A DNA stretch of 64,000 nucleotides, taken from contig OX344754.2 of the NCBI GenBank assembly GCA_947034885.2, positions 25,665,369-25,729,368 of the forward strand, given 5' to 3'. The position numbers and the translations under genes are program-made. Below, piece after piece: positions 12,070 to 45,013 of this stretch (its first letter is position 1; every line of letters begins with the position of its first letter). This stretch comes from Thuidium tamariscinum (lineage: Eukaryota > Streptophyta > Bryopsida > Hypnales > Thuidiaceae). Below the pieces are notes generated by a model. That model did not search any database. It was given only the letters and a program-made list of their open reading frames with translations, and had not been told where the DNA came from.

Positions 12070-12479
12070 CACTAGAAGAAAGACTTGTTTTTTGTGACAA
12101 GCCCTGAGACGTGGGTGGATGTGAATCGCAACATCAGGCATGTAAACTATGAATGTCTAGGAAAATCCGTCAAAAAAGACAAGGGAAAAACACAACAGAA
12201 TTAGGAAAAACATGTTGCGTTTAGTGAGGAACATCACAGAAATCACAACAATTTTGAGGGTAAAAAGGGGTAAAAAAAGCGCCACGTCAGCGCCATGTCA
12301 TCACCAAGTTATTTTTTTTTATTTTTTATTTTTTTCCTGACCAGACCGACGTTGATGTGGCAAATGAGATTGTTTCAGTTCACTTCAGTTGAACATTGCA
12401 GTTCATGTTGAACTCAACGTCCTGGAAAACAAAGAGACGTGGTCTGTGACATTCACAGCAACACTAAAGCTATCAATAT

Positions 12480-14100
12480 CAACAGATTTTCAGTGTTTAA
12501 GATGACAAATTCCATGATGAAGTAACGAGGCGCTATGTTTGATTGCATGTTTTTAGAGGCCTGCTGAGTGTTTGGTGCGTTCATACTTAATTATGTTTTG
12601 AAGATTAATAAGACAACATTTGCAACAGTGCCACTGATTCTGCACAAACTAGTATGGAGTTTTATGTGTGCTACAGAACATAGCAGTAGAGTGGAGAATT
12701 TTTTGCACATTCTTCTTAACATGGTCACAAAGAGAATATGGAACTCGCCATGTACAGTTTGACAATAGGGTACATGTGTTGCACGATGAGTAGCGCATTA
12801 GAGTAATGTTTTGAATAATTAGTTGATCCTATAAGTGCATTCTGGAAGATGTGAGTGTCAACAACCACAAAAATAGATTGACCTTGTCATTCAATATTTT
12901 CCTAGTGCTATTGTACATTGCTGAACACGTGTAATGAGGACTTGAACATTAAAAAAACCATTTGCTTTTCCTTAGGTCATGTTCTTGAAAATCATCGATA
13001 CCTCATAGACATGTGCTATACGTTTTTTTCCCCGCATGTTATTGCATAGTCATTGACATCCTCAAGCATATTATAATGAACAAGGCATTGATGAGATTAT
13101 ACATTGAATTTCCCATGTTATTTCATCATTATTGACATCCTCAAGTGTATCATAATAAACAAGGCATAGATGAGATTATACATTGAATAACACGTTGGCC
13201 AACTTCTTCATAAACATTCTATTACATCACAACACTTGTGCACTAGCATATTTTAACATCTGTGCGCTTTGCATAGTATGCTATGAAGCATTTGTTTCTA
13301 TATTTCATGCTACGAGCATGTACATACTACTATACACACAACATATGCTAATTCTGCACTGTAGCACATATGTTTCTGAGGTAGAAAGGCTAGCATGGAA
13401 ATTAATTATCCATCATGTACTAACGTCTTTTATAATAGGTATCTCTTCAATTGAGCTATATTGGTTTTACAGTCAGGTGACCTAATAATGCTACTCACAA
13501 TCACATTTAAAAAATGACGGCAAAGTTTGGTAGCCTACATCGTACACATGTTATATGAACAGGGATGCAAAGCATGCACTAACTTATGTGAGCTCTGGTA
13601 CTAAGGTACCAATTGTGTGGAAACAAAGCTCCAAACTATGAAACTCTACGACTTGAAATTCGTTCAAAATGTATAGAAATCTTCATTCTTCAAGAGATGA
13701 ATATGTTGCTCATTGCTCACAGTACCTGTGCAATGCTGGAATATGCTACTCATTGCTCACAATACCTGTGCAATGTTGTTCTTGGTGAATCAATTGGACA
13801 TCGAACATGCTTGACAACCATTGCACCTCCTCCTAGCCTATATCACACTTCATGAAATATCTAAGTGGTTCGAAATGATGCAGTAACTCTGCACTGAGCA
13901 ATTGTGTATTCCACTATAGAAGCTATTAATTTGATGCTCATCAAAAAGTTTGTACCTTCAACAGTGCACTTCGAACTTAGTTGTCATGAGGTGCTTCACA
14001 GACAATTGTGGACTTGCAGTCAATTGGAAGCAGTCACACATTATATTACATACTAGTACTTCAATAGCCACATCCACGTTCTATGCATGAGAAAGCTCCC
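12480..14100. other. Gene-free stretch with local tandem duplications
   Basis: No gene is recognised. An approximately 84-bp unit ending in AGATTATACATTGAAT is present twice in tandem near 13035-13190. A shorter duplication containing TCATTGCTCACA and ACCTGTGCAATG lies at 13705-13780. The rest is AT-rich unique-looking sequence. Confidence 0.5.
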
Positions 14101-14239
14101 GCACAATGAGGTAGATATGTTAGCTATCAACTCGTCTCAAAAGAGAACCTGCAAATGGATACCAACACCTATATTATCCACACTTGTTTACTCTTTAAAC
14201 ATCAAATTTCAATAGGAGATGAGGTACATACCAAAAGTG

Positions 14240-17200
14240 ATTCTTCACTACTAGAAAAGTCACCCCGAATGAACTGAACTATGTTGATTAGGACATCTTG
14301 ATTCGGACACTTTTAACACAATTGTGTTAAAAGTGTCCGAATCAAGATGTCCTAATCAACATAGTTCAGTTCATTCGGGGTGACTTTTCTAGTAGTGCTT
14401 GCACCAAGATGCGTAAGGATATGTAGGGCTCCACAGACCATGCAATATTCGGGCGACCACTCTGCCAATGAAACTCGCATTCTGGTGGGATTTTGAGAGG
14501 ACCTGCTCAGTAGTGGAGCGTATCAACATCAGTTCTTTGAATAGGTTTAGCAATTCCATAAATATTACACACAGAAAAATAATAATTGATACTACAGCCA
14601 CAAACTTCCAAAAATCATAACAGCTTTGGTGAAAGATTCAGTAGTAACCATACCTTGATATCTGCCCTCAAGAAAGAGCTGCAACATCGTAATATCCGTA
14701 CCACTAGTGCTTTGTAAGAGTTGTACAGAGCTTCATAATCCTAGGAAAGTGCTGTAGGGCAGAGAAGATAATTGTTAAATAAGAAACCAAGGTAGAGAGG
14801 ACCTGAAATAGGGACTCTACCTTGTGGACTCCACAACGCTAGGTGCAGCTGGGGTTGTCGGTTTATCTTCACATCTGTTGAAGTATGTACTGATACTACT
14901 TTGCAGAGATAGTTGCTGGGCAGTACACTCAGAATTACTGCTCGTCTCTTCGCCACGACGAGACGCAGCAGCTGCTGCTGCAGTATACATTGCATCAAGC
15001 TTGGCCACCTGATAGAAGGTACATCCAGTAGGGGTGCAAAAACTGGACAAACTAAACTGGTCCAGCTTTCAAATCAACAACGGCCTGAAATCCCAGATGC
15101 TGAAAATAACTGATAAAATACAAAGAACTGCAGGCCCTCATAACATGACACAAAGAAGACAGAAATAACATGATCTTGTCCGAGAACAATCAAATGAGAA
15201 CCAAATAACTTCAGAATCCAATAAAATGGGTGAAATCTATGTAAGGAGAGAGGAGTCACCTTAGGACGATTGCCGCCACCAGAGCACTATGTTTTGCAAG
15301 AAAAGCGGCTTTAGTCTGAGACATGAGACCCCCCAACTCAGCAAAGGTCTACCTTAAGAATACAAAGTGAATAATTGCATAATTCTGAAAGAGTTAAAAG
15401 ACTAAACAAACACAAACACTCACTTTGTAGAACGTTAAGTTCATGTTGCTTTTAACTTGGAATGCACATGCACGTACTGCACCTTTCCGACTTCCATGAA
15501 CGACAAAATTGTAGCCCTGACCTGCACATCCAAGATTTCAGATACGATCAAGGCAAAGATCACTGCTTCAGGAAAGATTAACTCACTCTAAAGTTGGGAC
15601 AGCATGTTTGAAGCTATATCTTTACCTCTTCTTTGAGATCCAATTCAATAGCTGTTTGTTCAACATTGATTGAGGTCATAGACTTTGATGTATCTGGTGG
15701 ACTCTGAAACACTCGACAAAGAAACTTGTTCACAGCGAAGGTGTCCGCACCGTCGCTGCAGAATAGCCGAAATGTCAGCTGAAGTAAAGGTTTGAAAATG
15801 ATGAGCAACGGCAAGGCTACCATAGCCTTCGAGATAGATCAAGCCTCATCTAACCAATTTGACATACAAACACCAGTCGTATTTAGATTGTAGAGTTATC
15901 TCTTTCATATTTAAGAGAGGAAATATACCAAATGATATACCAAAAGTCTATGCCACCTAGTTGCCATACCTGTGTGCAAGACTGCGGAGTTTCAAATAGT
16001 CTGTATCGTCCAGAAAAACGTGGCAGAAGGCAGGTTTGCCATCACGACCTGCACGTCACGTTTCCTGCATAGTATTCAACGTCATAAACTTATATCTCCC
16101 CATGAAGAAAAGAGCGTTATTTGTAAGAGAATTGCAACCGCAGGGATGAACTAGGCTGCCTGTACATAATGCTCCAGACTTCTAGGCATGTTGTAGTGAC
16201 TTACCTGCAGAATGGGAAGTTCAAAACTAGAACTCAGTTGGTTTCAAAGTTCTAGGTTAAATATAATTATCCCCTTCAACAATGCCTGTGCCCACTGATC
16301 ATCTGCTGCTCTTCAACGTCCAGTAAAAAAATTACAACCTAACTATCCCAAAGCAAGGATCAGATTATTGCAACAATACAATGTCGAGGAGACCACAGTT
16401 GCATGAGAAAGCCTTCAGCGGAAGTTCAAAATGTTAAATTACCGAACCAATGTTCCTCTTATCCAAGCCCATTCCAAAAGCAACAGTGGCAACAACCTGC
16501 ACATCAGAACAACAGACCTCATAAAACGGAAGTTCGTGGAAGTTCTTAATAAACGTACATGCAAGTCTTCTTATCCCTGCTCAATAATGTCGAGAATGAA
16601 GTCCCAAGAACGAGAATATCCAGATTCGAAGAAAAGCAAAGGGTCAGGAAGAACTAACTTACCACACGCAGTTTGTTACTGCAGAAGAGTTGGTAAACAC
16701 GAGTTCGTTCAGAGGACGGTCTACCAATATGATAGCTCTGCAGGAACAATTAAAAATGTGATTGAAAATTAGAAGAAGCACTAATAATGCCTTCACCAGT
16801 AGCATTGGCTAACCATGGGAACGCTATACTTCACTCTTGACACAAAGACAACATGCTTGGGACGGCAGGCAAACCTTAGCAGCAATCGTTTTCTCCTCCA
16901 AATATCTGCTTATATCATCAGCTTCAGCCTGCATGAACAGGTACCTCATTAAGGGACAAGAGGAATGACCCAGTCTAAGAATCAAAAAATATGAAATTCA
17001 AGTCGTACATGGACATGTGAACCTCTTAATACCTGATATGTGCAGTAGATGATGATGCTTTGGACTTCTGAAAACGGACTAGACCGAAGCAGTGCAAGTA
17101 GATCCCTCCGCCTGTGAAGAGGAACAGATCATCAGATGCAGCAATTCAATTCCGAAAATCTTTCTGGATTCGCACTATCATACAGCTTGCATCAGAAAAA

Positions 17201-19330
17201 TGATTTTAATATAACTTGCCGATGTGAAGGTCGCGAGACAGATAGATGAAGATTTTGGCGAACAGCAGATGCTTGCGCAATTCCTGATGAAGGAATAGAA
17301 AGGGCTTTGATGATGGAACACTCTGTCTCTTTGGTAGCTGTTGCCGTCAAGGCTAGAACGCACGGGACAAGCAAACGCTTCTTCAGTATGTTGCCAAGAC
17401 TGTTATATGAAGGTCGAAAGTTGTGTGACCTGGAGAGATGAAACAAGGGTCAGCTCACATTGAAAGCAGACATAGTGAAGGACAAAAGCAGGTGAGTCAG
17501 TCTATGACTAGTGATAACACAACTTCTAAGGAGCGTGAGGCTCATAATCACTAACTGTGCACACAACTGGATTCGGAAGGCAAATGTTTCACCATTCGGA
17601 AAGGCAGTGAGCCTCATCCACCACTGCCAGATAGATTTCAGGGAGAGAGTCCAGAGCAGACAGAAAACTACCGCTGAACAAACGCTCTGGCGATATGAAT
17701 AGCACCTTCAATGCAAGAAAACAAAGGAATACTGTTAATACACGCTAATCAGTATTCAATGGTTTTGGTGAGCTTCATGCTTGGCACAAATTCACAGACA
17801 GAGGTTGTGACAGCCCTTCCCATAAGGGCTAGCCCAAAAACTCCTATACACTGTCATTGTGTGACATAGATGAGAGACTAATACAAACTCCAGTAAATGC
17901 AGGCAAGAGATTCAAACTCACACTAGCATTCCAAGAATCATGACAATGTACATGGTGCAGTTGGTCATAAAGATAGCCATAAAACGAACCTTAATTTGAC
18001 AAGAAAGAAGTCGACTCATTACTTCAGTGCTCTCACTAGTGCTTTGCAATCAGATTGAACACCTGATCAGTATCCCCACAATTGCTTGGTATTCAGCGAA
18101 ACAATGTTCAAAGCAATGCATATTCAAATCAAGAATTCTTGATCCTTCAGCGGTTTTAGCCATACAATAAAAAAGCCCATACCTGAGAACTATTGATAAG
18201 ACCTCCAGGCAACAACGGAGGAAGGTGTTGCAGCTGGTCCGCCATGAACGCCACCAATGGACTAATCACCAAAGTGAGTCCCGGTAGAACATACGCTGGG
18301 AGCTGCTTACCAAAAGACGTATTTACAGTGAGGTAGACGATACTAGAACCAAGAGAGACTTTCTCACATCTCACCAACCGCTACTCATCTATTCAGACAG
18401 CCGACCTTCAATTGACTTAGCTAATGTGTACGGCCAATGATCTTTCAACAGAAACGGGGTTGTCAACTGGCACTTGCACTGGTCTAGAACCTCCTTCGAA
18501 ATTGCATAAGAAATTCATTCACAAAAACAAATGTTTGATCTACACAGATTTCAGTCTTGTACGCATACTGATCTCTCCACGGCGCTACATCGATCTCCCA
18601 ATAACCACTCTCCTGAGAACATTAAAATGCTTGCCTTACATAGTATCCTCTCCCTCAAGCGCAAGAGATGAGATGATGAGGCTCCGAGAGTTTCGGGTTT
18701 CAGATCCGACAAGGCGAGAAGAGCACGAACCTGATAGGTGAGAGACTTCCCTGCCCCAGTGGGAAGCACCAGCAAAGTGGACTCCATCGCCAGCACACGT
18801 TGAATAGCAACCAACTGCCCACTGCGAAAAGCCTTGTACCCAAACACAGGCTCCAAGACTGTCAACAAATTCGCTTCGCAGGGGTCACCAAGAGCGGCCT
18901 CCTTCAAATTCTTTAGCTCCTCCGGAGAGATAGACAGCGCAGGGGAGAAGTCCTCCACAGGGGAAGTGTCCTTCGTGTTCTCCACACTGACGACACGCTT
19001 GTCATACCAACCTTCGTCAACCCACAACGAAGTGGACTTCGGACCTTCGGGATCCATGCCCGCTTGATTCTACTTCACCGATTTCCGCTTGCTGGGCCCA
19101 ACGCTTGTGTCCACATTGCTGTCACCTTCCGCCATAGCCATATGAACCTCGCCATCCTCCAGCGTTGTTTTCTTATACTTTTGGACTGATTTCCGACGAC
19201 AATATTTTCGTGATAGCTTGCCCTCGCTATCACGAGCAAGTTCGTGAAGAAAGAAAAAGGCTTTAGAAACCCCACGTGAACGCAGAACAGGCTACAAAGA
19301 CGAGCCACACAAGAATCATTATCTATAAAA
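14240..19330 (-). pseudogene. RECQ5: RECQ5-type DNA helicase, captured and disabled
   Basis: About fifteen short exons on the minus strand follow the order of plant RecQ-like 5 helicase. Motif 0/I is FGYKAFRSGQ and LPTGAGKSLTYQ (exon ending 18731). LPGLTLVISPLVAFMADQL lies in 18183-18302. VLFISPERLF and VVDEAHCLSEW (motif II) lie in 17593-17705, and SHNFRPSY and LALTATAT in 17216-17429. Motif IV SIIIYCTYQ is near 17040, ATVAFGMGLDK near 16470, NMPRSLEHYVQ near 16170 and RAGRDG near 16050. The C-terminal region includes AVNKFLCRVF, VAKLDAMYTAAAAAA and ARILHGLWSPTYPYASW (14403-14560). RecQ5 unwinds DNA in the nucleus. Damage: TAG at 19070-19072, TGA at 16056-16058 inside motif VI, a probable frameshift near 15449 and the palindromic MITE at 14246. 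Only part of the N-terminal region (LARDSEGKLSRKYCRRK, near 19200-19250) is present. Confidence 0.9.
14246..14397. mobile_element. Perfect palindromic (fold-back) MITE, CACTA-type ends
   Basis: The 152-bp insert is a perfect inverted repeat: two 76-bp arms with no mismatch and no spacer, centred at 14321/14322 on CACAATTGTG. Its ends read CACTACTAGAAAAGTCACC. It is flanked by CTT on both sides (14243-14245 and 14398-14400), the 3-bp duplication expected for CACTA transposition. It lies inside a RECQ5 exon: on the minus strand the codons for SWCK run straight into its CAC TAC TAG, and the coding match resumes beyond it as NHFW followed by a donor. The lack of any mismatch between the arms suggests recent origin. 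Confidence 0.93.
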
Positions 19331-19419
19331 TACTTGATCTTACAACACTGACTCTGTGCTTGCAATTTTCAAGTCTCACAGAAGTCCCAGGCAAGATTAA
19401 ATTCCTACAGAAGTATGAC

Positions 19420-20452
19420 CTTAATGAAGTCCGCAGGTAATCCTGCTAGATCACTTTCAGTGAAGTAGAGGCGACGATTCTCTTCATTCATATTCTGCTG
19501 AAATTCGATGCACAGCTCGCCAATGGTGGTCTTCAAAAACTCGACCTTCCTCCTAATGTCTGCAGATAAGTTCAAACCCAATCTCTCGTAATCTCTGACC
19601 TACAGCAAAGGAGATGCATAAGATCGGATCCACTAGTGAGGAGTAAAGATCGTATATAATGTAAAGTTTTCAATCACAATACAAGGAAGAGGTTCCATTC
19701 ACACTTCGCACAAATCAAAGTTCACATGTACGGTCAATGGAGCCTCAAATGTACTGTATGGCTGATGGAGCCTCTACTTTATGTTGTTGTTCTTGGAAAA
19801 CCTTACGCACAACTAATTCCAAACCGAACGGGTTATGAAGAACATGATATTAGGGAACTGACCTCGTCTCTTGTACTGACTCATGTTGAATTCGTACACA
19901 GTGAGCAAAAAAATCGATCTCAACAGATTGTTTCTAGTACCCAAAGGTATCTCTCTACAGCTCCATAGTGACCTCCAAAGAATCACAGTCCTGAGTATGT
20001 TAAATTGCTTATAGTGACGTAGATAGTATACTCTACTATAAAACGTAGTAGCCACCCTAATTACGGGAAAACGTGAAAGGAAGGGACTCACCAAATGGTC
20101 CACAAATTGCTGGGCTTGAGGGCTCAAAGGATCGGCCTTCTCAGCGAAGGCCTTCACAACACGGTATACATCTTCGCGCAAGACATCCCACTACACGGCT
20201 TCACGTGCGTCCAATAAAACACATCAAGAGTTTCATACAGCACATAAGACACATTAGACTGCAAACTAACATTGAAATACATAACTACCTGCACTTTACA
20301 TTGTAGGCATCAATTCTCTTCTCCGCTTTAGAACTGGCATCTCGAACTTCCTTCGAAGTCGACACCAGGGCAGGAAATACACAACTTTGAACCAAAGCAA
20401 ACTCCTCTGACTCTAGAATTGCCAATGGTGCAATCACATTCTCATAGTTCAC
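19420..20452 (-). pseudogene. Thimet oligopeptidase (M3 family) fragment, three exons
   Basis: Three minus-strand exons match the N-terminal part of plant thimet oligopeptidase. 20289-20452 gives NYENVIAPLAILESEEFALV and QSCVFPALVSTSKEVRDAS. The exon ending at 20092 gives REDVYRVVKAFAEKADPLS. 19420-19599 gives RDYERLGLNLSADIRRKVEF and FTESDLAGLPADFIK. Donors are GTAGTT, GTGAGT and GTCATA. The second exon's acceptor is doubtful: the visible TAG does not join in phase. The zinc-binding HEXXH exons that form the catalytic centre of this cytosolic or organellar peptidase are absent, as is the true N-terminus, so it cannot encode a working enzyme. It follows the JmjC fragment and precedes RECQ5 on the same strand. 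Confidence 0.88.
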
Positions 20453-20479
20453 CTGTAGAAATGCCTCATAATCTCGCAA

Positions 20480-22577
20480 GATTCTCAGGAAAGTTGCAAA
20501 GCATCTGTTCAGTGTACGGATAAAGTCTATGAGAGGTTTCTGGTGAATATAGTCGTACATACTTCCGACCTACCACCTGGAGGACCACAAGGATGCAATC
20601 AACTAATTTGTTCACAAGTGCAGATGAAGGTAAACATAAAAAGAAGACTTCTTTCTAAAGCAGGTTCTCAAATTACTCTCATGCGACCAAAATTTTAAAC
20701 AGCTCCCAGATGCGTGCCACGTGCTGACTTAATTTGAAAAGCAAGAGTGTCCAGTGCATTCAATTCATACTTGTGCTAGAAGATTGTGGTGGGGGTCATG
20801 ATGTAAAGGAGTTATCGTTCCAGCAGGGCCCAACCAGGCGTTTATGGATTGAAGGTCACCACCTCCGACAGAACAATAGTCTGGGATAACTATGTCTGCT
20901 TGCAGCTCTGGAATCTGGGTTGATAAACCAGATAACTTCTTACAATCGCAACAACAAATTGCACCAGCAATCCACCCTGCTACCAAACATCTAATCCAAA
21001 ACACCATGATTACATCATATAAGAGTTTACAAAAACAATGTCACACGAAAGAGGAGACCAGACATAATATCTCTTGCACACTTCATACCTGCTCAAAAAG
21101 TGGGTGCTGGGCAAGATACGGCCGACTGGTGGCTTGAGCATCAGAATGACCGAGAGATCTCTCTAAAAATTGGGAAAGAGTCATCAGCTCCTGCTTCCAA
21201 TCTGAAGCAAGATAGTGTTCTCCCACCTGCCCTGATTGCCACAAGTTCAAATTACTAAGCCCAGAGGGAAATACCACAAATTATAGACTGCTTACTCCAA
21301 AACTATCAATCAAAGGGAACACACGGTCTTTCATCGGCCATGATTTCTGAAGAAGTCACCGAAGGCCCAAAAAAATCCATCAAGCAGGACGCCGATTATT
21401 TAAAAGGGGAAGAGAGCATAGAGAGAAAGACTTTGGCGTAATCAAATTCATCTTGTTCCGTCATCCGGTGAGATCCCCCACAAAAAATTGCGTCTAGTAA
21501 ATAGATCGTGAAGACATGAGGAGGGAGAAAATAGTCAGAACTTACCTCTACCGGAACGGTGCGATGCCCAGCGATCTTTTGAAGATAGGTGATGTCATTC
21601 CACTTTCTCATAGCAGGCCAGTGATTCATCGAATTTGAGATTACTACTGGTACTCCAGGCAGAAAAGAATCACGAAGAAAACTTTCCAGTGAAGGGCAGC
21701 TTCTTTTATCTACCAAAATGCCCCGCAAAGAGCCTGCCGGTAGAGCATTCAGCTCCTGACATTATCAGAACGTTTTCCTATCAGTGTCTTACACCTCTCA
21801 CTACGACAGGTCATCAAGAATGCTAACGAAATGTGAAAATTCACGAACAGTGCCAGAAATTCTTACTATTCCAGATAAATGATAAACAGAGATATGATGA
21901 TATGAAAGAGAAAATTGTGCCTTCCACATATTCGGAATACACATACGCGGTTTCACACGAGGCACGACTAGGAATATGATAGCATTCAAATTTGACAGTC
22001 AATAGCATTAAAATGCTCCAACAACAAATTTGAAGCCTCCTAATTGAGATAGGAACTAGCTCCGCCCCTGGTCTAACTTCATCCTAAATACAAGAAAGCA
22101 AACCACATTAAAACGCCATCAAGAAAGTGCACAACATGGGTAAAATAAAAGAAGTTTAGCACTTGCCTACACCTCATGTAGCACTTGCCCTTCTTTCTTC
22201 TTTCGCAGAAGCACATCCGGCGATGCTACTTGCTGATGACTCCCTTGATTAGCACCATTTAACGTGCCAAGGCCCTTGGCTGTGCCTATCGCCGGCCCAA
22301 TGCTGCTGAGGTAAGTGTCAATTTCCTTATGAAATCGTGGGTCCCCATGATCACTCCAAGATCCAGAACTTTCAGAGACTCTACAGGCCGGTTGGCTCGG
22401 TGATGGCACGACGCCAAGGACAAGCAGGAGAGAGAAAAGGCATCACGCCAAACAAAAGATACACTTTGCCAGGGCCCTGCGTGTAACTCCTCCCACGCTA
22501 ACTCATATGCAGCTTCTGCAGCTTCCTCGTCACACGCCAGGCCTTCTTTGCAAGGCCAGCAACCCTTCATTGCGTAC
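20480..22577 (-). pseudogene. JMJ30: JMJ30/KDM8-type JmjC protein, captured fragment
   Basis: Five minus-strand exons are visible: 22173-22577, 21546-21755, 21089-21230, 20771-20914 and 20576 to about 20480. They match plant JMJ30 in order: AAYELAWEELHAGPW, ESFLRDSFLPGVPVVIS and MNHWPAMRKWNDITYL, GEHYLASDWKQEL and [27 protein letters not shown] and [14 protein letters not shown], then VVGRKYVRLY and LYPYTEQMLCN. The iron-binding H-x-D of this nuclear 2-oxoglutarate oxygenase is present in HHD. The C-terminal WWHYV part with the third ligand is missing. Exon 1 changes frame near 22330: LDLGVIMGTHDF continues in another frame as HKEIDTYLSSIG. The start exon is also missing. The last exon runs into the oligopeptidase fragment within tens of bases. 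Confidence 0.9.
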
Positions 22578-22579
22578 CT

Positions 22580-23740: not shown

Positions 23741-23743
23741 AAC

Positions 23744-23971
23744 AATCTATTCAATACGGTGCTATTTGTGAATCGTTTCGATGATGATAAAAACGTGGTT
23801 GGGGTGCTAGTCGCAAATGGAAGCAGCGAGGGTTTCGAGATTGGGGAATCCGATGGCGTACAATTTGCCGCAGGCGGAATTCGCGCCGTATGAGAATCGG
23901 TCTTGGATTTGGAATACTGTTGGATCGGGGATGATGCAGCGTCGATTCAATTTTCCTGTGTTCCTTCTTTC
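23744..23971 (+). pseudogene. Probable nicastrin exon fragment
   Basis: On the plus strand one frame reads LFVNRFDDDKNVVGVLVANG. After a change of frame near 23850 another reads MAYNLPQAEFAPYENRSW and IWNTVGSGMMQRRFNFPVF then LLSP, followed by the donor GTGAGTGATG at 23972. The order (GVLV, then PQAEFAPY, then a W-x-W-N-like block, then NFPVFLL) is that of nicastrin, the large glycoprotein subunit of gamma-secretase. The recognition is from memory of the family pattern. Only one exon is visible, it carries a frameshift, and it is on the opposite strand to the other captured genes. Confidence 0.5.
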
Positions 23972-23974
23972 TCC

Positions 23975-26648
23975 GGTGAGTGATGCTCCGGTTTGCTTGA
24001 ATCCCTCTCTCATGCATGGTTTGGTCTTTTCATGGGACCAATCAGCAAGCTAGACTAACTGCAACTTCATGGAGTTTGAAGAGTCACAAAATCCATGCTA
24101 ACATCTCCGTATTAAATTTCAGAGCATTCTCACGACCAAAGCAGCTAGAAACTAGATGATACTGGAAAAACTTGGAGAATATAGGAACGCGCGCAGGCAG
24201 TATAGGGTTTTTCGACGAGAGACGAATACGATAAGCAGGAAAAACCACCTGTGAATCTGCTGCCTACAATCTCCAAATGCAGAGTATGAGATGATTGTCA
24301 TGCTCTACACCTTGGGGCTCAGCTGCTACTCAAAGAGAATCACGGCGCTTACAAGTCAGTGATAGTCTACATCACCGAAAAACGTCACGCTTCTAGCAGA
24401 AATTATTCCCACTGGAAAACAATCAATTGTAGGTCACAGCGACTCACCTCGAGATTTGATTGGACAGAGGAATCCCAAATTTGCAATTCCCCAAGATCAA
24501 AACCTGTTCCACACATTTCAATCGACTTTCTCAGTACTACAAAATCGAAACAGCAAGAAATACTGTTTCGAGCAGAGCATGTGCGATCCTCCCTCTCACC
24601 CTGAAACCGTTCAAATTCCAAATTGAATCCCAACTAAACCTCTCAAACCCAATGACAGAAATTTCAACACTCCACTACTCACTCCTCTCCAACTTCACCA
24701 CTTCCAAAAATCTAGACCAAATCCGAAGAACCACTGCCTCTAGAAATAGCCCCCGCCAGAACCAAAGTCCATCACGATTTACGCGTGGGAGAAATTGTAC
24801 AAAGCAAATTTACAAGGTACGTCTAAATGGAATCTGACACAAGGGAATTCAAAGACGTACGAGTGAACCTCAATGAGGAATGTTGGCAAAGGTGAAACCG
24901 CAGTTGCGATGGCGCTTGTGCCTGGGTGATGAGTACGAGGAGAAGATGGCGACTGAGGGACAAGAAGTGCAAGTGGAATGGCAATGAATCTGGGAAGGGA
25001 AGGATTAACAAGCGTGGAGCTCGATGGAGTGTCCGTCGCGTGCAAGTTCTTGCTAAGTTACGCTTACCCTTTGGTACTCTTTTAAAGCCAACCTGCAAAC
25101 TTCACTACCTCATTTCCTTTCCTCCTTCCTCTCACTCTCTCACAACATGCAGGTCAGAGGCTCGCTTTTCAAGTAAGACAGCTACACCAAGTTAGGGTTC
25201 CCACTTCCTCAGGGTAGCTTAGCTTCTATGGTAGCAAACGATGATGCATAGCTTCCAGCCTCCACAGCCAACAAATTGTACCTCGACAGATTTGGCGCTT
25301 CTACCCTAATGCATCTCTCGCGTCACTCCATCCGTACATTTCCTCGCATTGAGTTCAAATGTTGAATCCCAAATTGGGGCACACTACTACTTTTTGTTGC
25401 CTGCAAAACAATGGAACAATTTCAGCACATCACCAGAATCTGTGAAACATACCAAGCTATCCACCGTATCTAAACATGCTGCTAGCACATCACAAATCCG
25501 ATGGAACAAAATGAAGACGAAAAAGATTACAATACACTATGACACACCGTTCAAGTAGTTCAATACCTGAGTCAGAGCTACATCAAGTTCCTTGACTGGT
25601 TCCACAAGCTTGCCTTGGTTCTTCGCTGATATTGACTACATAACAGCTCACGCTGCTTCTCAGCATGGATCACCATTTAAAGATTTACAGTAGAAACACC
25701 AAAGAGAGGAAAGCTGTAAAACAAAGGAGAATAGGATTCTTTCCTCAGAGCTTAACATAAATAAGGAGAGAGGAGCTGCATTGCACGGAAGACAAAGTGG
25801 CTTCTGTCATCTTCACATTGCTACATGGCGCAACAGAAACTGTCGCACAAAGCGACTACATTGTTGGAATCAGCACTGCCTTCTCTCCCCCTCCTGGACA
25901 AATCCACCTTTGCAAAAGTAACGCCAACCCTATTAACTTCTCAAATTTTGGAGACTCTCCGGAGAGAAAAATTCAAACGTGCCGAATTTGGATCAGAGGT
26001 GAGGGATTAGGGTTCTTGAAATAAAGTGCCGATTTCTTGTCAATTCGCTGCGAGATTTTGTGCAATCCCTGTGACAAACGTCGCTGTGACGTGCAAAACC
26101 TACGCATCGAAGAATTGGTCGGGGAATAAGCTTACAAGAACAAAACAAAACAAAGCGCCAACTCTACCGGTAAGAGGGACTCACAGGCTTGCACTCCATT
26201 GCTACAAAGATTACAAAGCGAACTGACCTCAATTGGAGATCAAATCCGATGAAACTTAGCTCCACCAGAGCAGTGCAGCGGGAAGCCAGCGAGTGAGCGC
26301 AATGTACCCGGAGTCCAGGAAGGCGGAATTGCGCCGCAGAGAATATTGAATCCCATCGTAGACGAAGACTGAAGTGTGCATTAGCTCCCGTCTAGCCTGA
26401 AAGCTATCCACGCAGGTATCGGTTCAGCCAGGCACGCTGCATGGAGGGACATCTACTCCTTCGACGCCATTGACATAAGTCACATAAGCTTAACATTTCT
26501 GAGGCTCCTAGATAACTGGGACGGATTTGACCACCAAGGCAAGGCACATTTACCCTTAAAGTCTCAATCCTTTTCTGATTTTTTTTCACATTTTTGCTAG
26601 TATCTTTCTAAAACAATATTATTTACTGGAATTTCATGAAATTGGTCA
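23975..26648. other. Mostly unassigned; one possible first exon
   Basis: I recognise no family here. The plus-strand frame at 25825-26000 starts with an ATG and reads MAQQKLSHKATTLLESALPS, and later SQILETLRREKFKRAEFGSE, before a possible donor GTGAGGG. It looks more protein-like than its neighbours and could be the first exon of another captured gene. GC content is higher than in the AT-rich DNA to the right, which also suggests host-derived sequence. Confidence 0.35.
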
Positions 26649-27594
26649 TTAACCCTAAACATCCGGATGCATCTCCAAATTGACTACTTGGGAAAAATCA
26701 TTATAAAGTACTGTGTAGAAGAATATTTTGCACTTGATATACAAATAAGAGTTGTAGATTTTGAGTTTCAAATTCCATCTATACAATTCGATTCACCATT
26801 GCTATGACCAATGTTTTTCAATAAATTTTGAAAGGAAAAAATTATTCTAAATTCGATTACAAGCAAAATATTATCATTTTTGGAGTAAAACTTGTTAGAA
26901 TGGATTTGAAATGAGGTTTTCTTTACATGGTGATCTTTTGAATTGTTTGTGGTCTTTACATCTATGACCTCATTTTTGCAAATCCAATTTTAAACTAAAA
27001 TCAATGCAATTTTTGACTGGACAAACTTCCACATTTGCAGTTGGCACTTGCTTTGCTACACATTAAATATATTATTTTCATCAATTTTTCATTAGAATTT
27101 GAAATACCTTGAAATTCATAGAATGTGAAAGTGAAATGAAATGTGAAGCCAAAAAAACCTTAACATTCATAATATCAATTACCTCTATAATATCACATTT
27201 AATACTATGTGATATCACAAAATTGAAATGGTCATTATAACTATGTAATATCACAAAATGTAGAAATGCAATATTACAAAGGACCTTGTGATTTTCACAG
27301 TACGATAAATTCTAGTTATACCAAATCCTACTATGAGATAGAATAAAAACTTGATGGAGTACATCCACAAATAAGATGACTTTCATCCATCCAATTATGA
27401 TAAAGGAAACTTATTTTTATTTTGTTCATTGTCTAGAAATTGAATGCTGATGCACTCCAAGGTTAAAGAAGGTTGTGTTATCAGGATTCAAGTATTACAT
27501 TCCAGGATGAATGAGAAGTTTGTGGGACTCTACAACATTTTGAAGCCTTTTGTTCATTGTCCAGAATATGAACATCGAAGAGCTTTAGGGTTAA
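26649..27594. mobile_element. TTAA-flanked element (piggyBac-like ends)
   Basis: The left edge reads TTAACCCTAAACATCCGGA. The right edge read inward is TTAACCCTAAAGCTCTTCG. The shared ends CCCTAAA with TTAA on both sides are typical of piggyBac-like elements and their MITEs. No transposase frame is present; the interior is AT-rich. The shared ends are short, so the pairing is moderate evidence. Confidence 0.5.
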
Positions 27595-27669
27595 TAATTT
27601 GCTACGGTTAAAGTCAAAATAAATTTTAAATTTTAAATTCATAATTGTTTTGAAATTTAATAATTTTCA

Positions 27670-28060
27670 TGTTGTTTTGCTACAACTCCAATCGAATTAT
27701 TTGGTCCTACTCATTATCAATGGGATCAAGGATTTTTCAACGAGAAATAGATCAAAGAATTCATTCTAGTAAAAATGAAAATCTTAGTTTATCTAAAGCT
27801 TGGTCTCAAATTCCAAAAAAATTAGCTTTTCATGATTATATTAGTAATAATCCAACTAGAGGTGGGTTATTTAGACCAGGTGCTACGGATAATGGAGATG
27901 GAGTAGTTGTTGGATGACTATGCCATACTATTTTTAAAGATATAGAATGACATTCCAATTATTAGTTGCCATATGTGTATTTTTTTTGAAACTTTTCTAG
28001 TAGTTTTGGTAGATTAAAAAGGAATTGTTAGAGTTGATATTCCATTTAGCCATAGGTTGG
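27670..28060 (+). pseudogene. psbB: Chloroplast psbB (CP47) fragment in nuclear DNA
   Basis: The conceptual translation reads [20 protein letters not shown], then after a 1-base shift in a T-run [28 protein letters not shown] and [19 protein letters not shown]. Further on come TIFKD and, in shifted frames, FFETFLVVLVD and GIVRVDIPF. This is the large lumenal loop of the photosystem II antenna protein CP47. Two TGA codons (where CP47 has Trp and Gly), several substitutions and indels show an old nuclear copy of plastid DNA. It lies between two TTAA-flanked elements inside the family III CACTA element. Confidence 0.88.
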
Positions 28061-28302
28061 AACCCCACAAAACAAAGCCCATGCACTTCTTCTTGCCCAT
28101 ACAACCCTCTTTGTAGAGAGCTTCAAAGTTTACTAAAGTTTGAAGTAAACATCCAAGTTCATCTAGATCTTGAAGATTTCAGTACATCAAAACCCTAACA
28201 ATTCAATGCATCACTATATACCCAATTCATATATAATTAAAATATATTTGAAATATACCTCAAGTATTTCAAGTATGTGATAGCTTCCATTTCAATACCC
28301 TA

Positions 28303-29155
28303 TTAACCCTTAACGTCTTGATCCATTGTGAAATGGTCAAACTTCATATTTGAGCACAACATTGACATCTAAATTGTGTTTAAAGAACAATCTTATATTT
28401 TAATCACATGAAACTATAAATTGTATATCAATACAAGAAATTTCAATTAGTTTTGTGAAAAATTGCAATTGTTATCATTTTTGTTGCAAAAAATGAATAT
28501 AAATAAGTAAAAATAGAAAAAATAGTCTAGATTATTTGAAATTTTTTCAAGAGGTATAAGTAGCCATGGAAACTAGTGTGAAAATTTTTCAATCGGTTAT
28601 TTTATTTCTTACAACCAAAACAAGCACAACAAAGACCTTGAAGTCAAATTCAACTATCAAACCAAATTTATCCTCTTTTTTATTGACATATAAAATTTGA
28701 TATTGGAAAAATGCATTTTCTATTTATGCTGATTTTTTCAATTATCTTGATGTAAAAATCAAATTTTAATGATTTTTTAAAGCTAAAGGTGGAAATAAAA
28801 TGATATCAATTAGGATATATATTACAATAGTCTGCATTTTTTGCCATAAATGAGAGATAGAATGGGAATCATAATTTTCAATAGTTCAAATTTAAAATAC
28901 ATTCTTAATAAATTAAAAATAAATTAAAAACACACAATACTGTGATATTTGGATTTGAACACATTGAGCTTTCAATTGCAATAATTTTTCTGATTTTTGA
29001 CATTTTTCAAAATTTCAAAATTGAATAAAAAGAAAACTTGGCAAGCTTCATTTTCTTAGTTTACATCAAATTCCAAACATTCTTAGTTTGAAAGTTACAA
29101 TTGAGGTTGACCAAGGTGCATCCAAAAAGTGGATGCATGTGCATTTAAGGGTTAA
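28303..29155. mobile_element. TTAA-flanked element (piggyBac-like ends)
   Basis: The left edge is TTAACCCTTAACGTCTTG and the right edge read inward is TTAACCCTTAAATGCACATG. The ends share CCCTTAA plus the TTAA target. The AT-rich interior has no coding frame. Confidence 0.5.
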
Positions 29156-29459
29156 AGCATGTGGTTACAATAGAAATATGTTAGTGATCTCCTTGGGTTT
29201 TATTGTTTTTTAGGTGATTCTCAAGGGCCCACACGTCTCGTTTATTCTTATTGAAGACTTATGTAGTCCTAAGAAGTGGCACTCTCTCTTATATTTTGCA
29301 TACACCTACAGTAATGACTTATTTAAAAGGGGACTATTTACCTTGCAAAATTCATGAAAAGACATAGTATTTTTTAAATTAAAGATAAATTTTGGTGATT
29401 AATTAATTACATCGTATTGGTAATTATAATTTTTTTGGTGGGCATTTTAATATATAATA

Positions 29460-30190
29460 TGTTACTTATCCCCGAAAAACCATTTTCCTTTGAGGAACAA
29501 ATGGAATTTTGGGCAGGTACCCACAAGTTCAAATTTTATCCTGATTTCCTTTTTTAAAATTTGAAGATAGAAATGTTTATTGTCTTCATGGGAATATAAT
29601 TTTTTCAATTGATGCTTAGGAATAAAAGTTATATTCAAAATCACTCAAAATAAGGGAAATCAGGCAACAAAATAAATTTTGAAAATTTGAGTTTAAAGAA
29701 AAATAACTTGTAGGATTCAATTTCAAATGCAATTTTTAATATTTAAAAAAAAATTGCCAAATGGTTTATTTTTTTCCTAGAACAATTCCACCATTAGAAT
29801 TAGTGCATTCTATTTCCACCTTCAAGATATTATTTAACTTTTCCTTCCATTTCATACCTACTTCTACATAATACTTTTTTAAAGAATAAAAATTAAGCTT
29901 TTCTGTATAGTTTTTTCCCCTAGAGTCTGAACTCAATTATACATTTCAAAGATTTAAAGCTCAAAACTCTATAGTGAAAAAAAATAAAGTTAAGAAGGCT
30001 TAAAGTCAAAAAAATTAAACCTTACAATGTGCTAAAAAACCGGTTTTTTCTACTTTAACAAAAAAAATCTTACAGTCTATGTTGTTCAAAATTTTGAAAT
30101 TTATTCCACATGCTCTCATACTAAAAATACTATGGTTAGATTTGTAGAAAAAACAGTTTTCAAATTTTTTTACCCTTTGCTATAGAAATA
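29460..30190. mobile_element. Decayed copy of the 0.93-kb TTAA family
   Basis: Blocks here match the better preserved element at 60111-61043 in the same order: a 'cattt-tcctttgagga' start, GGGCAGGTACCCA, TTCAATTGATGC-AGGA, and near the end ATTCCACATG and ACGGTTAGATT-like words (here TATGGTTAGATT). The ends are degraded, so the limits are approximate. Confidence 0.5.
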
Positions 30191-30199
30191 GAATTTTTT

Positions 30200-32440
30200 T
30201 TAATTTTTTAACAAAAAAATAAGGCCTTGGTTCTCTAGGGATTATACCTCATTATTTTCCTATAGACCCCAATCTTTTCAAGATTACACCCCATTTTTTT
30301 TCCCTTAGATACAAAATTTTAAAGTATTTTTTGCATATACCATATGTACCTTGCAATGAAGTACTCCATTTAGAATATGGGAAAATTTTTATGACAAATC
30401 ACCCCATTCATGAATACATTTAAAGCTTCATATGGTAATCTATAACCCTTTTTTTAGTTACTCACATTTGTATATACTATTTTATATGTACTCTTTACAT
30501 AATTTATTGTATTATGTCTAACTCTATAGTCTATATAATCATGCATGTTTCACAATTTTAAAGCACCCTATAATAAATATAATTTTTTACAAATTTTACG
30601 TGCAATGAATATATTAGACCCTATATTTTATTACACATTGTTCCTATGTTTTTCAACAATGCTTCCCCCCGCCCCCCCAAGTTGTAAATTGTCAAATCTA
30701 AGAGAAGGAAGAAATATAAAATGTTATAATTTTAGTGAGGTAAATTTCATCAATTGTGAGACTAAAATATATTGCAAGTCTTAATTTTTTGTAGAAAAAA
30801 TCTATTCCACCCTCATTACAAAGAAAGTGTGTCTTAGTCTTGTAAAGATATATCCAATTGTAACAAAGAAAAAGAAATGAATGTTGGTATTTTCTAAAGG
30901 AAAAGCCAAACTTCAATAATGAAAAGATTATTTGGATCTCCTCATTCTTCTAACAGAAAAGGTCAATTGTCCTAGGAATTGCCTTAAAAAAGAAAAAAAT
31001 GTGGGTGTTACTGTAATCACTTGAAGAAATTAATTACTTTATGTATTGAAATTTTGAAAAAGGCATACATGATTTTAATCTTATAAACTAAAGTTATTTC
31101 ATATAAAAAAAGGTAGGTGTTACTAATACTCAAATGTAATTAATAATAATAAAAACATGGATGTTTAGATTTGTAAAGAGACAATATTAAACTTCAAATA
31201 GTGAAAAGAATATGAATTGTGTGCTTATTCATTTGAAGAGAATTTCTATTGTAACAAACAAAGAAATTGAAATCTTCCAATCTTATATTGAAAAAAAATA
31301 CTTACCTTCGATTTTAAAAAATATGGGTGTTCTTATTATTGCAAGAAATATATGCAATTGTAACATATAGTGCAAAAAATACAAATTGTGTTGTTATTCG
31401 TTTTTAGTCCTTGTATACAATTGTAGTAAAAAAAAATGAGAAAATGGGATTTTCTAATCTTGTAATAAGAGAAATACTCAACTACAATAATATAAAGAAT
31501 ATAAGTGTCCTAGATTCCCTAATGACAATATTTAATTGAAATAATGTCATGAATAAATTAAAAAAATTCTTATTTTACCAAAAACTATTGGAATTGGAAT
31601 TATAAGGAAAAAATGTTTTTATCAAGTAAAGAATATGCTCAACAAAAGGAAAGAGAAAAAATATGGATGTTTACAACACATGAAAGCCTTTGTTGATGGT
31701 CATTTTATAGTCATGCTTACATCAAAGAAGACATCTCCATTAGCTTGCCTAAGGTTTGCTTATCGTTTTTGATGTTATGAATTGCACAGTGATTAACATT
31801 TGCTTTGATGTTATGATTGCAAACAGTAAATAACAATTTTGCTAACAGTGATGTCTTTAAAAACATCTTTATGTTTAGTATGATGTTTAAATAAGCATCC
31901 AAAGTTGTAACATAGGTCTGTCATGATCGCTGATGTGGCATGCCACGTCAGCATACTATGTCCACATCACGTAATTTCCATATCAGATGCCATGTCACCT
32001 AATTTCCACACCATCTACTCGTTTTCATCTTTTTTATCGTGGTCAGTCATTTTACCTCTGACCAAACTAGAATTTTGTTAATTGCTTTAATTAAGTTTGA
32101 CCAACAATGATGATGTGGCTATGAATGTTTTTTTGGATGATTTTAAAAACATTTTTATGTTGACAACCATGTTTTAAACTACATCATTGTTTTGGATAAC
32201 ACCAATTTGTTGTGACAAGAATTTAGCATGCTTTTTATAACATTTAATTAAATCTTCCAATTTTTGTAGCCTTCATTCACTGGACATCCCAATGTTCTAT
32301 AAAACATATAAAGTTTTTTTAAACATGTTACGTTTTTGGCCTGACACCAAAAAAAACATGGGTTTCTTATAGTGAGGCTTGCAACCAGCCATGTTTGCGA
32401 CAGAGCCAATGAGGGAGACCATTGTAGAAGGCGGCGTGTA
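30200..32440. other. AT-rich gene-free stretch with an orphan CACTA-type end at 32374
   Basis: This is low-complexity, strongly AT-rich DNA without genes. At 32374 a sequence read leftward on the minus strand starts CACTATAAGAAACCCATG then eight T. It resembles the family III left end in 20 of 24 positions. It is flanked by AGG, and I found no left partner preceded by AGG. The 31900-32000 stretch carries short inverted words around GCCACGTCAGC. Confidence 0.5.
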
Positions 32441-32715
32441 AGGTCGGTACACCCAAAAGCGCCATGTTCCTAAAAGCGCCATCTATAGTGCACATACATT
32501 TCCGAAATCAGTCATGTTCACAGACTATAGATGGCGCTTTCAGAAAACAGACTTTGACTGTTAATAACTTTTGCATACAGTATCTAAATCCTACGTTCTT
32601 TGGTGCGTTGGAACATGCTTTCACTTTGCCAACAAGACTACATAAAAATTTGAACTCATTAATCGTAGGAAGTAGGCTCAGTATGAATAAGTGGCGCTTT
32701 TGGGTGTACCTACCT
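32441..32715. mobile_element. MITE with 24-bp inverted ends and TA duplication
   Basis: The left end reads AGGTCGGTACACCCAAAAGC then GCCA. The right end read inward is AGGTAGGTACACCCAAAAGC then GCCA: one mismatch in 24. TA flanks both sides (32439-32440 and 32716-32717), as in Tc1/mariner-type (Stowaway-like) elements. Inside, a second inverted repeat, AAAGCGCCATCTATAGT against ACTATAGATGGCGCTTT, lies near 32475-32545. Confidence 0.85.
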
Positions 32716-33516
32716 TACATAAGAGTCACTGGAGATGTGGGTGAGCAAGAACATAGTCCAATGCATGACTAGTTGGATGTACGCACTCACATACTTTAGT
32801 GCAAGTGCACAAATTATGTTATCAATGTGCAAAGATCTTAATTGCATCGAAGTTTGCAATGTAAAATACATTGAGCATCTGTGGCTTCAAGTTTTAGTAG
32901 GTTGAAGTAAACATACAAGAACTATTACAGTGTCACTGAAAGGAAAATTGATGTTCTTTCTAGCAAAATTTTCTGTGTTTTCGTTATAAAATTAAACCGG
33001 ATGTCAAAGGCTTGATTTGTACACATTTCAGCAAAGTTTTGGTCCACTGTGTCAAGGAGGGTGAGTGTCTTCATGAAGGTACCATGTAAAAGTAGAACAA
33101 CAACCATGTCATAAAATATTATTTTTATCTCATAAACCACAAATTTACCTCGTAAGGTACCATATAGGAAGAACCATGCACACTAAATAAAATTTAATTT
33201 GTTAAATTTTAATTATTTAAACTTTAACAATTTAAATTGAAATATAAATAATTCAAAATCCCAAGACTGATTCTATTTTTTTATTGAAGGGGATGAATGT
33301 TACAACACCCTATAGTGCAAAGTGTTTTAATAGCAAAGGAAAGGAATCTTTGAACATTACTAACTTTGGTGCTTCAATGGAAGAAAAGAGAAGCTCTTAA
33401 TACAAGTGGGGTGCTAGGAGGTTGAATAAACTGTATGAGATATGATTTTTGAATGAGTACAAGCTGAACCACTTACAATTTAATCAAAAACTTGAGAACA
33501 TACAAAAAGTAAAAGA

Positions 33517-34240
33517 TTAACCCTTAAAGGACGGACCTATTACCACTGGTTTCAGGACTCACTTTCAGTCATCCAGTTTGTTGCCATCTTCAAACCAGAT
33601 GTGTATGAAAAATTTTAATTTTATTTTTTAAAGACGAAACTACATGTACTCTGTAATTCAAAAAAAATTCAGATTTTTTTGAGGAAAATTGTATTTTCTG
33701 GAATTTTTTGAAGAAAAATTGAAGAAAAACTCATATCAAATAGAAAATAATCTCAAAAAAGCTGAAAATTTCACCATGTGTGAATATTACAATGACAAAC
33801 ATCATGGTGTAAATGTATTTTCCGTGTACATCTATAATTAAAATGCAGTGGACATTAAAAATACAGCCAAAGTTCAAATTGCAATAAAATATTCAATTTT
33901 ACGAATTTTGCCAAAATTCAAATTGGAGAAGAAACTAGAGTAGAGAACCTCTATTTCATTAGTTGGCTTCAAATTCAAAAAATGTCGTTTTCAAGGACAA
34001 ATTTTAGATTTACTCAATTTCTCAAAATACATTAAAATGGCAAATTTTGCCATCCGTTTTCTCTCAACTATATGAAAACAAACATTAGTTAGACTAAAAA
34101 CTCAGTTGGATACACTTTGTAACTCAACATGAAAGGTCATTTGAAAAAAGTGGATGAAAAAACTACTGTTTGGTTCTTCTTTTGACCTTGGACTGTCATC
34201 CAAACACCTCAAAATGGTGTTGGCGGCAGTCCAAGGTTAA
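33517..34240. mobile_element. TTAA-flanked element, weak inverted ends
   Basis: The left edge is TTAACCCTTAAAGGACGGA and the right edge read inward is TTAACCTTGGACTGCCGCC. TTAA flanks both sides, and both ends have CC-T and GGAC words, but the inverted repeat is poor. Non-coding. Confidence 0.4.
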
Positions 34241-36479
34241 ACCTCATTCAGTCATAGTAGAGTGATATTAGAAAAAAAAACATATGTACTATAAGAAGGT
34301 GGTTAAGTTATTCAAATTATATCACTAAAAAAGCATTTACAACATACATTCATTGAATAAAAATAATGAAATAGTGTGAATAAAAAAGTGTGAATAAATC
34401 ACATATGTAATAAAGAGTATATAGGTATTACCATAATTTGAAGTCAAAAGTCTAGTTTTAACTCAAATTATTATGTTGCTATTCCTTTTGAAGAAAAAAA
34501 CAAGCTTCAAGCTAGTTGCTAAGACTTCAATTTATGGTGTTAATTAGGCATATACCCTGAATATGATTATATTTTCACAATTTCAATTTCAATTTCAATT
34601 AGTGTTTGCGATAAAAAAACAATTCCACAACAAGCTTAAAATTAAATTAAACCTGGTAGACTGTACTGACAATCCCAAGAATTTTCGAAAATCAATTGCT
34701 TTAAACTCAGACACGGTGTTCCAAGTACATGTGAAGTCTCCATTTACTCAAGTTAATTATACAGGTGTGGGAAAAATTATTCAGATTCTTCAGTTGTACG
34801 TTATAAATTTTTTTCTTGATAATTCAACCTATAGGATTACAGCCTTCATGAAATGCTATTTGAAAATGCAATTCTATTTGAAGTTAGAATTTATTTTCTA
34901 GAACAACCTTGAGTATTTGAGAATATAATCAAACACAATGTGGAGTGCCCAATGTATGCCTTGAAATTGGGCCAAAAAAAAGTTTTGGCCCCTTTTAGGA
35001 GTCTACACAATTTCCTGAAATTGAAACTTTCAGTACAATAAAGTAGTTCACAATGAAAGGCTTGGAAAGCTCATGTTCATCAAATAATTGAGAGTTCATG
35101 AAAGATTCAGAAATGGCAGAATAATGAACTATTTTGGATTCAAAACGTAGACGTATAATCAAATGAGGTATATAACATAAATATTTACCAATATGAGTTG
35201 GAAATTCAAAGAACTTCAAAGTTCTAATTCTAATCGAATAGAAAACTGTATTGGGAAAACATGGCAGTAGAAATAGAAAAAGGATTTTCCAAAAAATCGA
35301 ATTGTATAGACTGCATTGAATCAAAGTTTCAACATTCATTCCATTGTTTTAATCACAAATGGAAGTATATACAAATTCGATAAATGCTTTGATGGAATTT
35401 TCAGTTTCAATCGTCATAATTCAATTTGATTGGAATTCAAATCAAAAACAAATTCAAATTGTATTTGATACAAATTTAATTCAAATTGTAGATCAAAATC
35501 AGAACATTTCAAGAAATTCCAAATGATTTCTAAACATATTGGAAAGTTAATTTGCTTTTTTAGATTTCAATTGATTCAAATCAATTTCAATTTATTCCTA
35601 TTTACTTATCAACTTCCAAGACTTTAAAAAAAAGATTGAAGTTCTAAATTTGAATAGGATCTTCGAATATTTTGAAAAGGTTTTGAAAGATTTATGAAAA
35701 ATTCAAAAAGGTTTTAGAGGGATTCCAAACATTCAAAAATATTCCGAAAACATTATAAACGATTTCAAAACTCCTTCAGAAATTACTTTAATCTTGTTTG
35801 TAGTTATTATCATTTTCTGATAGTACATTTAAAATAAATAGAAGAAATCAATGTTTTATAGCTTTCAATTAGACAATGTTCATAACTGAAATCATATTCA
35901 CTCTCTTTTTAACCTTGCTAATTTGAAGAGGAGCCACGAATTTTCAAATACTCTGAATAACTGAATAGCTAAATGCGGCTTGGTTTGTTTTAACTTCAAA
36001 GTGTAGGAAGGATTAGAACGTGTTGCCACCAGTTTGAAGGCACTTACAGTTCAGAATGCTATGGTTTAGAAATGAAAACCAAATTTGGGAACATCAGCTT
36101 CATTCATCCATGGAAGTTCTGTATGCCCGAAATCAAAGTAACTGCCCCACCAATAACTTCTGCACCCTTGGGCAGCATTTTACCTCCTAGTATAGTAACT
36201 GCACAGAACTTACCTTGCTTGATAATAAAATCCCAGACCCCTTGTACACTTCCTTGTTCTCTAGGATGTCCAATAAAATTGAGTTTGCTAAATCAAATGT
36301 TACTTGCAGCATGGATGTGAGTCTCGGCATGACCATGTCAAAACTCTGATTTCGTAGCGTTCATTTCAACATCACATTCAATGAGCACCGATTGGCATAA
36401 ATTTTCTCTTCATACATATGTTCGCAAAAACTTGTTCGTTCATCTGTGACATCCAAAAAATCAAGGGCTCCTACTAGTG
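34241..36479. other. AT-rich right part of the family III element, no gene
   Basis: I see no gene. At 35400-35480 there are repeated AATTCAAATTG words, and at 35620-35780 a TTCAAAAAG/ATTCCAAAC-rich stretch. Composition becomes more balanced from 36000 to the terminus at 36479, as in the outermost part of the left end. Confidence 0.5.
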
Positions 36480-36482
36480 TCT

Positions 36483-44771: not shown

Positions 44772-45013
44772 AATGTCTCTTTTAGCTTCAAATCCTTCAA
44801 TGATCTCTTTCAAAGTTATATTTGGTGATTTAGTTTTAGATCATTTGAGACTACCAAATGACATTTTGTTTGTATTTTTTGAAATAATTATACATATTTG
44901 AGCTCAAAATGTGATATAGAAATCACTAGTTATATATTCTTGACATATTTTGAAAATCAATTTTTTTAGATAGCTATTATATATTTTAAAATCTTTTTGT
45001 AATACATGACATC

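Follow-up and report, generated by a model that had tools for sequence, protein, structure and literature searches.

A CACTA element of Thuidium tamariscinum with intron-bearing fragments of four separate genes, and related elements with partial gene sets

Introduction

CACTA elements are moved by a TNP2/TNPD-type transposase, which acts in trans on CACTA ends, and the short repeats in their subterminal regions are bound by a TNPA-type protein. Here we describe a 24.4-kb CACTA element located at positions 12070-36479 of a 64-kb stretch of the Thuidium tamariscinum genome (GCA_947034885.2, C6:25665369-25729368; hereafter the window), together with its relatives in the same genome, of which 363 Mb in 19 contigs (labelled C1, C2 and so on) were compared. 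About 9.8 kb of the 24.4 kb is intron-bearing host DNA derived from four separate loci.

Several described systems are close to this element. Pack-CACTA and other Pack-TYPE elements likewise have non-autonomous ends surrounding host gene DNA, and nested gains have been shown for a Pack-PIF cluster (PMC8903248). Unlike these, the element described here is 24 kb long and contains kilobase-sized blocks, each with a second genomic copy, and a later block follows a shortened earlier one. Tgm-Express1 of soybean is a CACTA element carrying exons and introns of unrelated genes (five in that case), but it is 5.7 kb in size and, in the text examined, lies at one locus and shows no series of partial stages (PMC1947982). 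The Tpn1 family of the Japanese morning glory combines conserved ends with captured host sequences in elements of up to 40.6 kb, but the text examined contains no stepwise series on one cargo chain (PMC5105172). On wheat chromosome 3B, the same captured gene was found in two CACTA families, which the authors read as recent DNA exchange (PMC4290129), whereas the apparent exchange reported here involves two types of ends within a single family and was examined by means of trees. The phrase 'sequential acquisition' was not found in the literature examined. Multi-gene capture, nested gain and cargo exchange have each already been published, and what is unusual here is their combination, with donors and stages, in one family. 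Whether DNA transposons take up genes by repair from ectopic templates or by the fusion of neighbouring copies is still open; partial stages, donors and junctions found in one genome make the order of events readable and the models comparable.

Ends and insertions of the element

The element starts with CACTAGAAGAAAG, ends with CTACTAGTG and is flanked by TCT on both sides (12067-12069 and 36480-36482). Its left arm occupies 12070-14001 (plus strand) and has an end point common to the C1 and C4 copies; the remainder of the element, including the right arm, occupies 24048-36479 (plus strand) and contains common repeats. One of these, a repeat of approximately 0.85 kb (28303-29156), has at least 34 other places in the genome at 82-89% identity. 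The CACTA...TAGTG terminal inverted repeats are present but imperfect (CACTAGAAGAAAG versus CACTAGTAGGAGC), and the terminal 400 bp of each end show a weak repetition of heptamers (TGTCACA and CCACGTC, three times each, counted without a control).

The copy at C1:31431201-31455652 can be aligned from position 12070 up to the same right end and has its own target duplication, TAC. For the copy at C4:153827-175640, the alignment spans 12070-36479, and the 4-bp sequence ACCA is present on both sides. In both cases, the likeness to the window starts at 12070 and stops at 36479, and the flanks are unrelated. Among the 11 distinct insertions that were read on both sides, 10 have matching 3-bp flanks (members are designated by contig and position in Mb): TCT in the window, TAC in C1, ACA in C11, AAA in C5, TAA in C2:22.2, TTA in C2:12.6, CCT in C6:26.5, TAG in C4:0.28, TTA in C6:4.9 and TGA in C7:20.3. 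The remaining one, C4:0.15, is the copy flanked by ACCA. One member, C2:12.6, begins with TACTA instead of CACTA.

In total, the left end was found at at least 40 places (the best 40 of 63 candidates were scored) and the right end at at least 30. When ends were paired by eye on the basis of strand and distance, 15 close (12.9-28.5 kb) and 5 distant (approximately 29-52 kb) members were obtained, the rest being unpaired. The larger distant members include those at C3:42.90-42.94 and C5:10.67-10.73 Mb. The segment 12070-36479 is thus confirmed as a two-ended CACTA element, both end points of which recur at independent insertions. A first-pass annotation of the window had proposed exactly this element with its TCT flanks, along with a genome search for further copies, and both ends were indeed found again elsewhere.

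Origin of the internal gene fragments

Between the two arms lie four blocks that, introns included, align to second copies at C3:17.84, C2:32.82, C5:6.03 and C3:39.00 Mb, that is, at four places on three chromosomes. These second copies were taken as donor loci. Among the matches listed that lie outside paired ends, they show the highest similarity over the greatest length, which does not establish the intactness of every donor exon. The family names given to the blocks rest on phmmer searches of single frames against PDB and on Pfam.

The first block (14002-19204, minus strand) is a broken piece of a RecQ helicase gene with its introns kept, 94-96% identical to the donor at C3:17.84 Mb (L035). 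Its frame has human RecQ4 as the best phmmer match (E 2.3e-9), with the Pfam DEAD domain below the cut-off. The alignment to C3 is broken by a 0.64-kb stretch present in the C3 locus only and by a palindromic miniature inverted-repeat transposable element (MITE) of 152 bp (14246-14397), which starts with CACTACTAGAAAA and has no counterpart in the C1 and C4 copies; this MITE was found in the five C6 copies of the element (the window included) and at at least seven further places at 96% identity or more. The first open frame of L035 encodes 633 residues, of which the element keeps approximately the last 217 and lacks approximately 416, including the first Met. The 'nearly whole 5-kb helicase gene' of the first-pass annotation was therefore too strong a description, as the greater part of the first exon is absent. 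In the exon part compared, 12 codons carry residue-changing differences, including one change to a stop, and silent differences affect another 7. A second partial RecQ match, also at 94-96%, is present at C11:5927732-5930775.

A 10-bp filler (19205-19214) separates this block from an M3 (thimet/neurolysin-type) peptidase block (19215-20465, minus strand; donor C2:32.82 Mb, L037, 94.7%), the frame of which matches neurolysin/thimet M3 peptidases (phmmer, E 0.0028). Additional peptidase exons beyond the captured block were recognized in L037 by eye only, and a more distant peptidase match (76-77%) lies at C4:27.3 Mb. The next junction holds a 26-bp filler (20466-20491), which is also present in the C1 copy; no source for it was found in the window (with up to three mismatches), and an exact 20-base search of the loci returned the C6 and C1 copies only. 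The third block (20492-23680, minus strand) is a broken JMJD5/JMJ30-type JmjC gene piece, 95.5% identical to the donor at C5:6.03 Mb (L036), with matches to JMJD5/KDM8 (phmmer, E 5.8e-16) and ARM_KDM8_N (Pfam, 1.4e-26). L036 has a downstream JmjC exon that the block in the element lacks, and one JmjC exon with its flanks shows 23 gap columns in 533 between the element and the second copy. Another JmjC match, at 77%, is located on C10. After an 84-bp segment (23681-23764, plus strand; matched as 23684-23767) common to three members without the four genes, the last block is an exon fragment of a nicastrin gene (23765-24047, plus strand; donor C3:39.00 Mb, L038, 98.9%; phmmer, E 0.0014). It lies on the strand opposite to that of the other three genes, and L038 holds a 222-residue frame that includes this piece.

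For RecQ, JmjC and nicastrin, the open frame of the second copy is longer than that of the element, and all four second copies extend past the blocks. Because the introns align with those of the second copies, the blocks are not retrocopies, and the earlier claim of copying from genomic DNA and not from mRNA is upheld. The first-pass annotation's gene names (RECQ5, thimet oligopeptidase and JMJ30 on one strand, nicastrin on the other) agree with our results in strand and at the level of the gene family, the level that our searches addressed. The capture of several unrelated loci that it proposed is reflected in the four donor loci, and the search for second gene copies, which it had named as a check, found all four at separate places and gave no refutation; its interpretation is supported. 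With host gene DNA between its ends, cargo from more than one locus and no transposase in the frames scanned, the element is of the Pack-CACTA type. When 23972-28250 was searched for further captured genes, the best 40 of 3731 candidates, a list crowded by repeats, contained an 80% match at C1:32150499-32151630 in addition to common repeats, and four frames from this region had no Pfam match.

Related elements with partial gene sets

The 15 close two-ended members carry different portions of this cargo, a block being counted as absent from a member when it was not among the best 40 candidates scored. RecQ was found in 12 members, the peptidase in nine, a TIC22-containing block in three, JmjC with nicastrin in six and none of these in three. 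All four genes are present in C1 and in the five C6 copies. RecQ without the peptidase is found in C11:0.77, C5:20.0 and C2:22.2, and RecQ, the peptidase and the TIC22 block occur together in the two C4 members and C2:12.6 Mb. The TIC22 block matches C7:23.07 Mb, its probable donor, over 4.3 kb, and the C4 copy contains a Tic22 domain (E 4.7e-22; L033 2622-3152, minus strand). Frames resembling a copia-type retrotransposon by eye also lie inside this C4 member (L033 5391-7161, minus strand). In C11:0.77, RecQ is followed by two extra gene stretches (L052 380-1501), one matching C5:8.82 (96%) together with C4:1.83 (93%) and the other C4:8.75 Mb (99%); no Pfam domain above the cut-off was found in them (RMI1_C, E 0.097), and two frames compared with PDB had no match. 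The RecQ match ends at positions of its own in C5:20.0 (18288, window numbering) and C2:22.2 (16668). Three members, C7:20.33 (20332668-20346120), C6:26.48 (26480113-26496535) and C6:4.93 (4929773-4945483), contain the 84-bp segment between a complete pair of ends, and the four genes were not among the matches listed for them.

The block edges differ among these members. The RecQ block of C11 reaches position 6744 of L035, whereas that of the window ends at 6490, so that the former extends 254 bp further into the donor. Similarly, the peptidase block of C4 reaches position 199 of L037, 791 bp further than that of the window (990). These positions indicate that blocks with a later block behind them are the shorter ones. 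After the peptidase, either TIC22 or JmjC comes next, and the sequence of acquisition can be read in part.

Histories of the cargo and the ends

The right ends (600 bp) fall into two groups. Group A comprises C1, C4:0.15, C5:20.0 and C2:12.6, which are 96-98% alike; group B comprises the window and the other C6 copies, C4:0.28, C11, C2:22.2 and the three members without cargo, with 91-96% identity across loci. Identity between the two groups is 86-90%. The window and the C1 copy are 98.2-99.4% identical over 14570-24069, with identity declining gradually to 91.4% in one terminal half-kilobase and 86.7% in the other.

The trees included two of the five C6 copies, the others being near duplicates. 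In a RecQ tree of 1195 columns (C4:0.28 and C2:12.6 were partly covered), the window, C6:24.77 and C1 were united (support 97/94), and a group of the A-end members was rejected by the approximately unbiased (AU) test (p 0.0003). Conversely, the right-end data reject the clade of the window, C6:24.77 and C1 (AU p 0.00014) and the pair of C4:0.28 and C2:12.6 (AU p 2.6e-47). The latter two are the closest in RecQ identity (97.9%), a pairing that lacks firm support in the RecQ tree. For the left ends, the clade of the window, C6:24.77 and C1 gave p 0.00016 over 450 bp. The cargo thus has a history different from that of the right end, and since the same cargo rides two diverged end types, an exchange of cargo and ends between elements seems to have occurred. 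If cargo truly moves between different ends, captured pieces can persist after the ends by which they were originally acquired are gone.

Proposed capture mechanism and alternative explanations

In our view, the element is probably a non-autonomous Pack-CACTA into which parts of four unrelated genes were copied in series and which then jumped as a whole. The two ends, the target duplications, the independent insertions, the four second copies, the broken state of the copies in the element, the partial stages in sister members and the discordance between cargo and right ends are direct observations. The ends would be recognized by a CACTA transposase made elsewhere and acting in trans, and the interior would have been assembled by serial copying of genomic DNA from the four genes, three of which came to lie side by side. 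This copying may have taken place when elements that had been excised or broken were repaired with ectopic sequences as templates (abortive gap repair with template switching). We infer capture by ectopic gap repair as the preferred mechanism; it would explain the two junction fillers, why a block is cut back at the edge where the next one begins and the interior exchange between end types. The series of stages probably runs by gain and not by loss, and the gene pieces are presumably passengers without host function. A wider proposal, put forward tentatively, is that the family may act as a serial cargo assembler, in which ectopic gap repair adds pieces at an edge that shifts with every addition, each new piece removing part of its predecessor, and cargo is passed between different ends, so that ends and cargo would be separable modules drawing on at least seven donor places (those of RecQ, the M3 peptidase, the TIC22 block, JmjC, nicastrin and the two C11 stretches).

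A composite could also be generated by fusion, if each gene piece came to lie between two CACTA copies that lost the ends facing it and transposed together from then on. This model has been proposed for Pack-CACTA elements and is backed by maize and rice clusters (PMC8903248; PMC13317346), but the two block-to-block junctions here hold only 10 and 26 bp, with no remnant of inner ends seen, and the self-comparison of the window (E 1e-10) gave no match to an element terminus inside the element, although inner ends could have been deleted; we regard fusion as unlikely in this case. The stages could alternatively reflect an early long chain from which members later lost different parts. Loss does occur, as RecQ is cut at separate positions in C5:20.0 and C2:22.2, and the C4 and C2:12.6 members hold later blocks different from those of C1 and C6. 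However, deletion from the present form of the window cannot yield RecQ sequence past the peptidase junction, as in C11, or peptidase sequence past the JmjC junction, as in C4, which leaves a history of loss quite improbable. As for an ordinary decayed locus in which the genes were neighbours, no supporting point was found: the second copies lie at the four places given above, and C1 carries the block set again, inside the same pair of ends but with a different target duplication. Within this genome, the four separate donor places reject a native decayed locus, whose probability is negligible.

The mismatch between cargo and ends might have arisen because the termini evolve faster or unevenly, and not through exchange. 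In line with this, the identity between the window and C1 declines gradually over approximately 1-1.5 kb at each end, and over 1000 bp of the left ends the clade of the window, C6:24.77 and C1 was not rejected (p 0.073; 0.055 without C2:12.6). On the other hand, the right 600 bp of the group A members are alike at close to the cargo level, in contrast to the lower identity between A and B, and the trees from the right ends and from RecQ conflict with each other; uneven change is thus a rather doubtful explanation. Together with the left-end result, several points weigh against serial capture and exchange. The tree groups were chosen after the identity tables had been seen, the absence of a block depends on the scoring of the best 40 candidates and gain over loss is not proven. 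No transposase was found in 12070-36479 among the 12 frames scanned there, a scan that was not exhaustive, and a partner element outside the window was not searched for.

Nesting of the element and other features of the window

The element with the gene fragments lies inside a middle CACTA element (10385-38620; target duplication ACG), which has tandem repeats near both ends (10667-10951 and 37464-38319). The middle element in turn splits the transposase-like frames of an outer CACTA element, a part of which occupies 8091-44771 (plus strand), with its right end at 44771; its left end was not found. These frames lie at 8091-9917 and 39697-42491, the Pfam domain DUF4218 being present in 39697-40389 and the others having been recognized by eye. 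Two relatives on C1 contain both sides of the split without the insert and stop at 44771-44772.

The five C6 copies of the inner element have identical flanks and TCT and represent one insertion; five independent jumps on C6 are therefore rejected. Because the tested stretches (8000-42070 and 43900-45400) are shared by four of these places (the window and 25.48, 25.31-25.34 and 25.06 Mb), we read them as probable segmental duplicates; the copy at 25.48 Mb has one insertion of approximately 0.9 kb. Movement of the outer element as their source is rejected, since 44772-45400, past its end, is also shared. The fifth copy, C6:24.77 Mb, matches 10747-38620 only and stops at the right end of the middle element (the left end was not found there), which suggests that the middle element carried the inner one along when it moved.

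Elsewhere in the window, frames resembling a CACTA transposase by eye are located at 579-2301 and 2602-3357, and a CTACTAGTG end lies at 4128-4136. A 379-residue frame at 48821-49960 (minus strand) resembles, by eye, the C-terminal part of a hAT transposase. The region 53610-58621 is a large inverted repeat with 2.4-kb arms of 94% identity, a partial copy of which lies at 49883-51414, and a 426-residue frame at 61537-62817 (minus strand) resembles, by eye, all or part of a protein-kinase-like gene.

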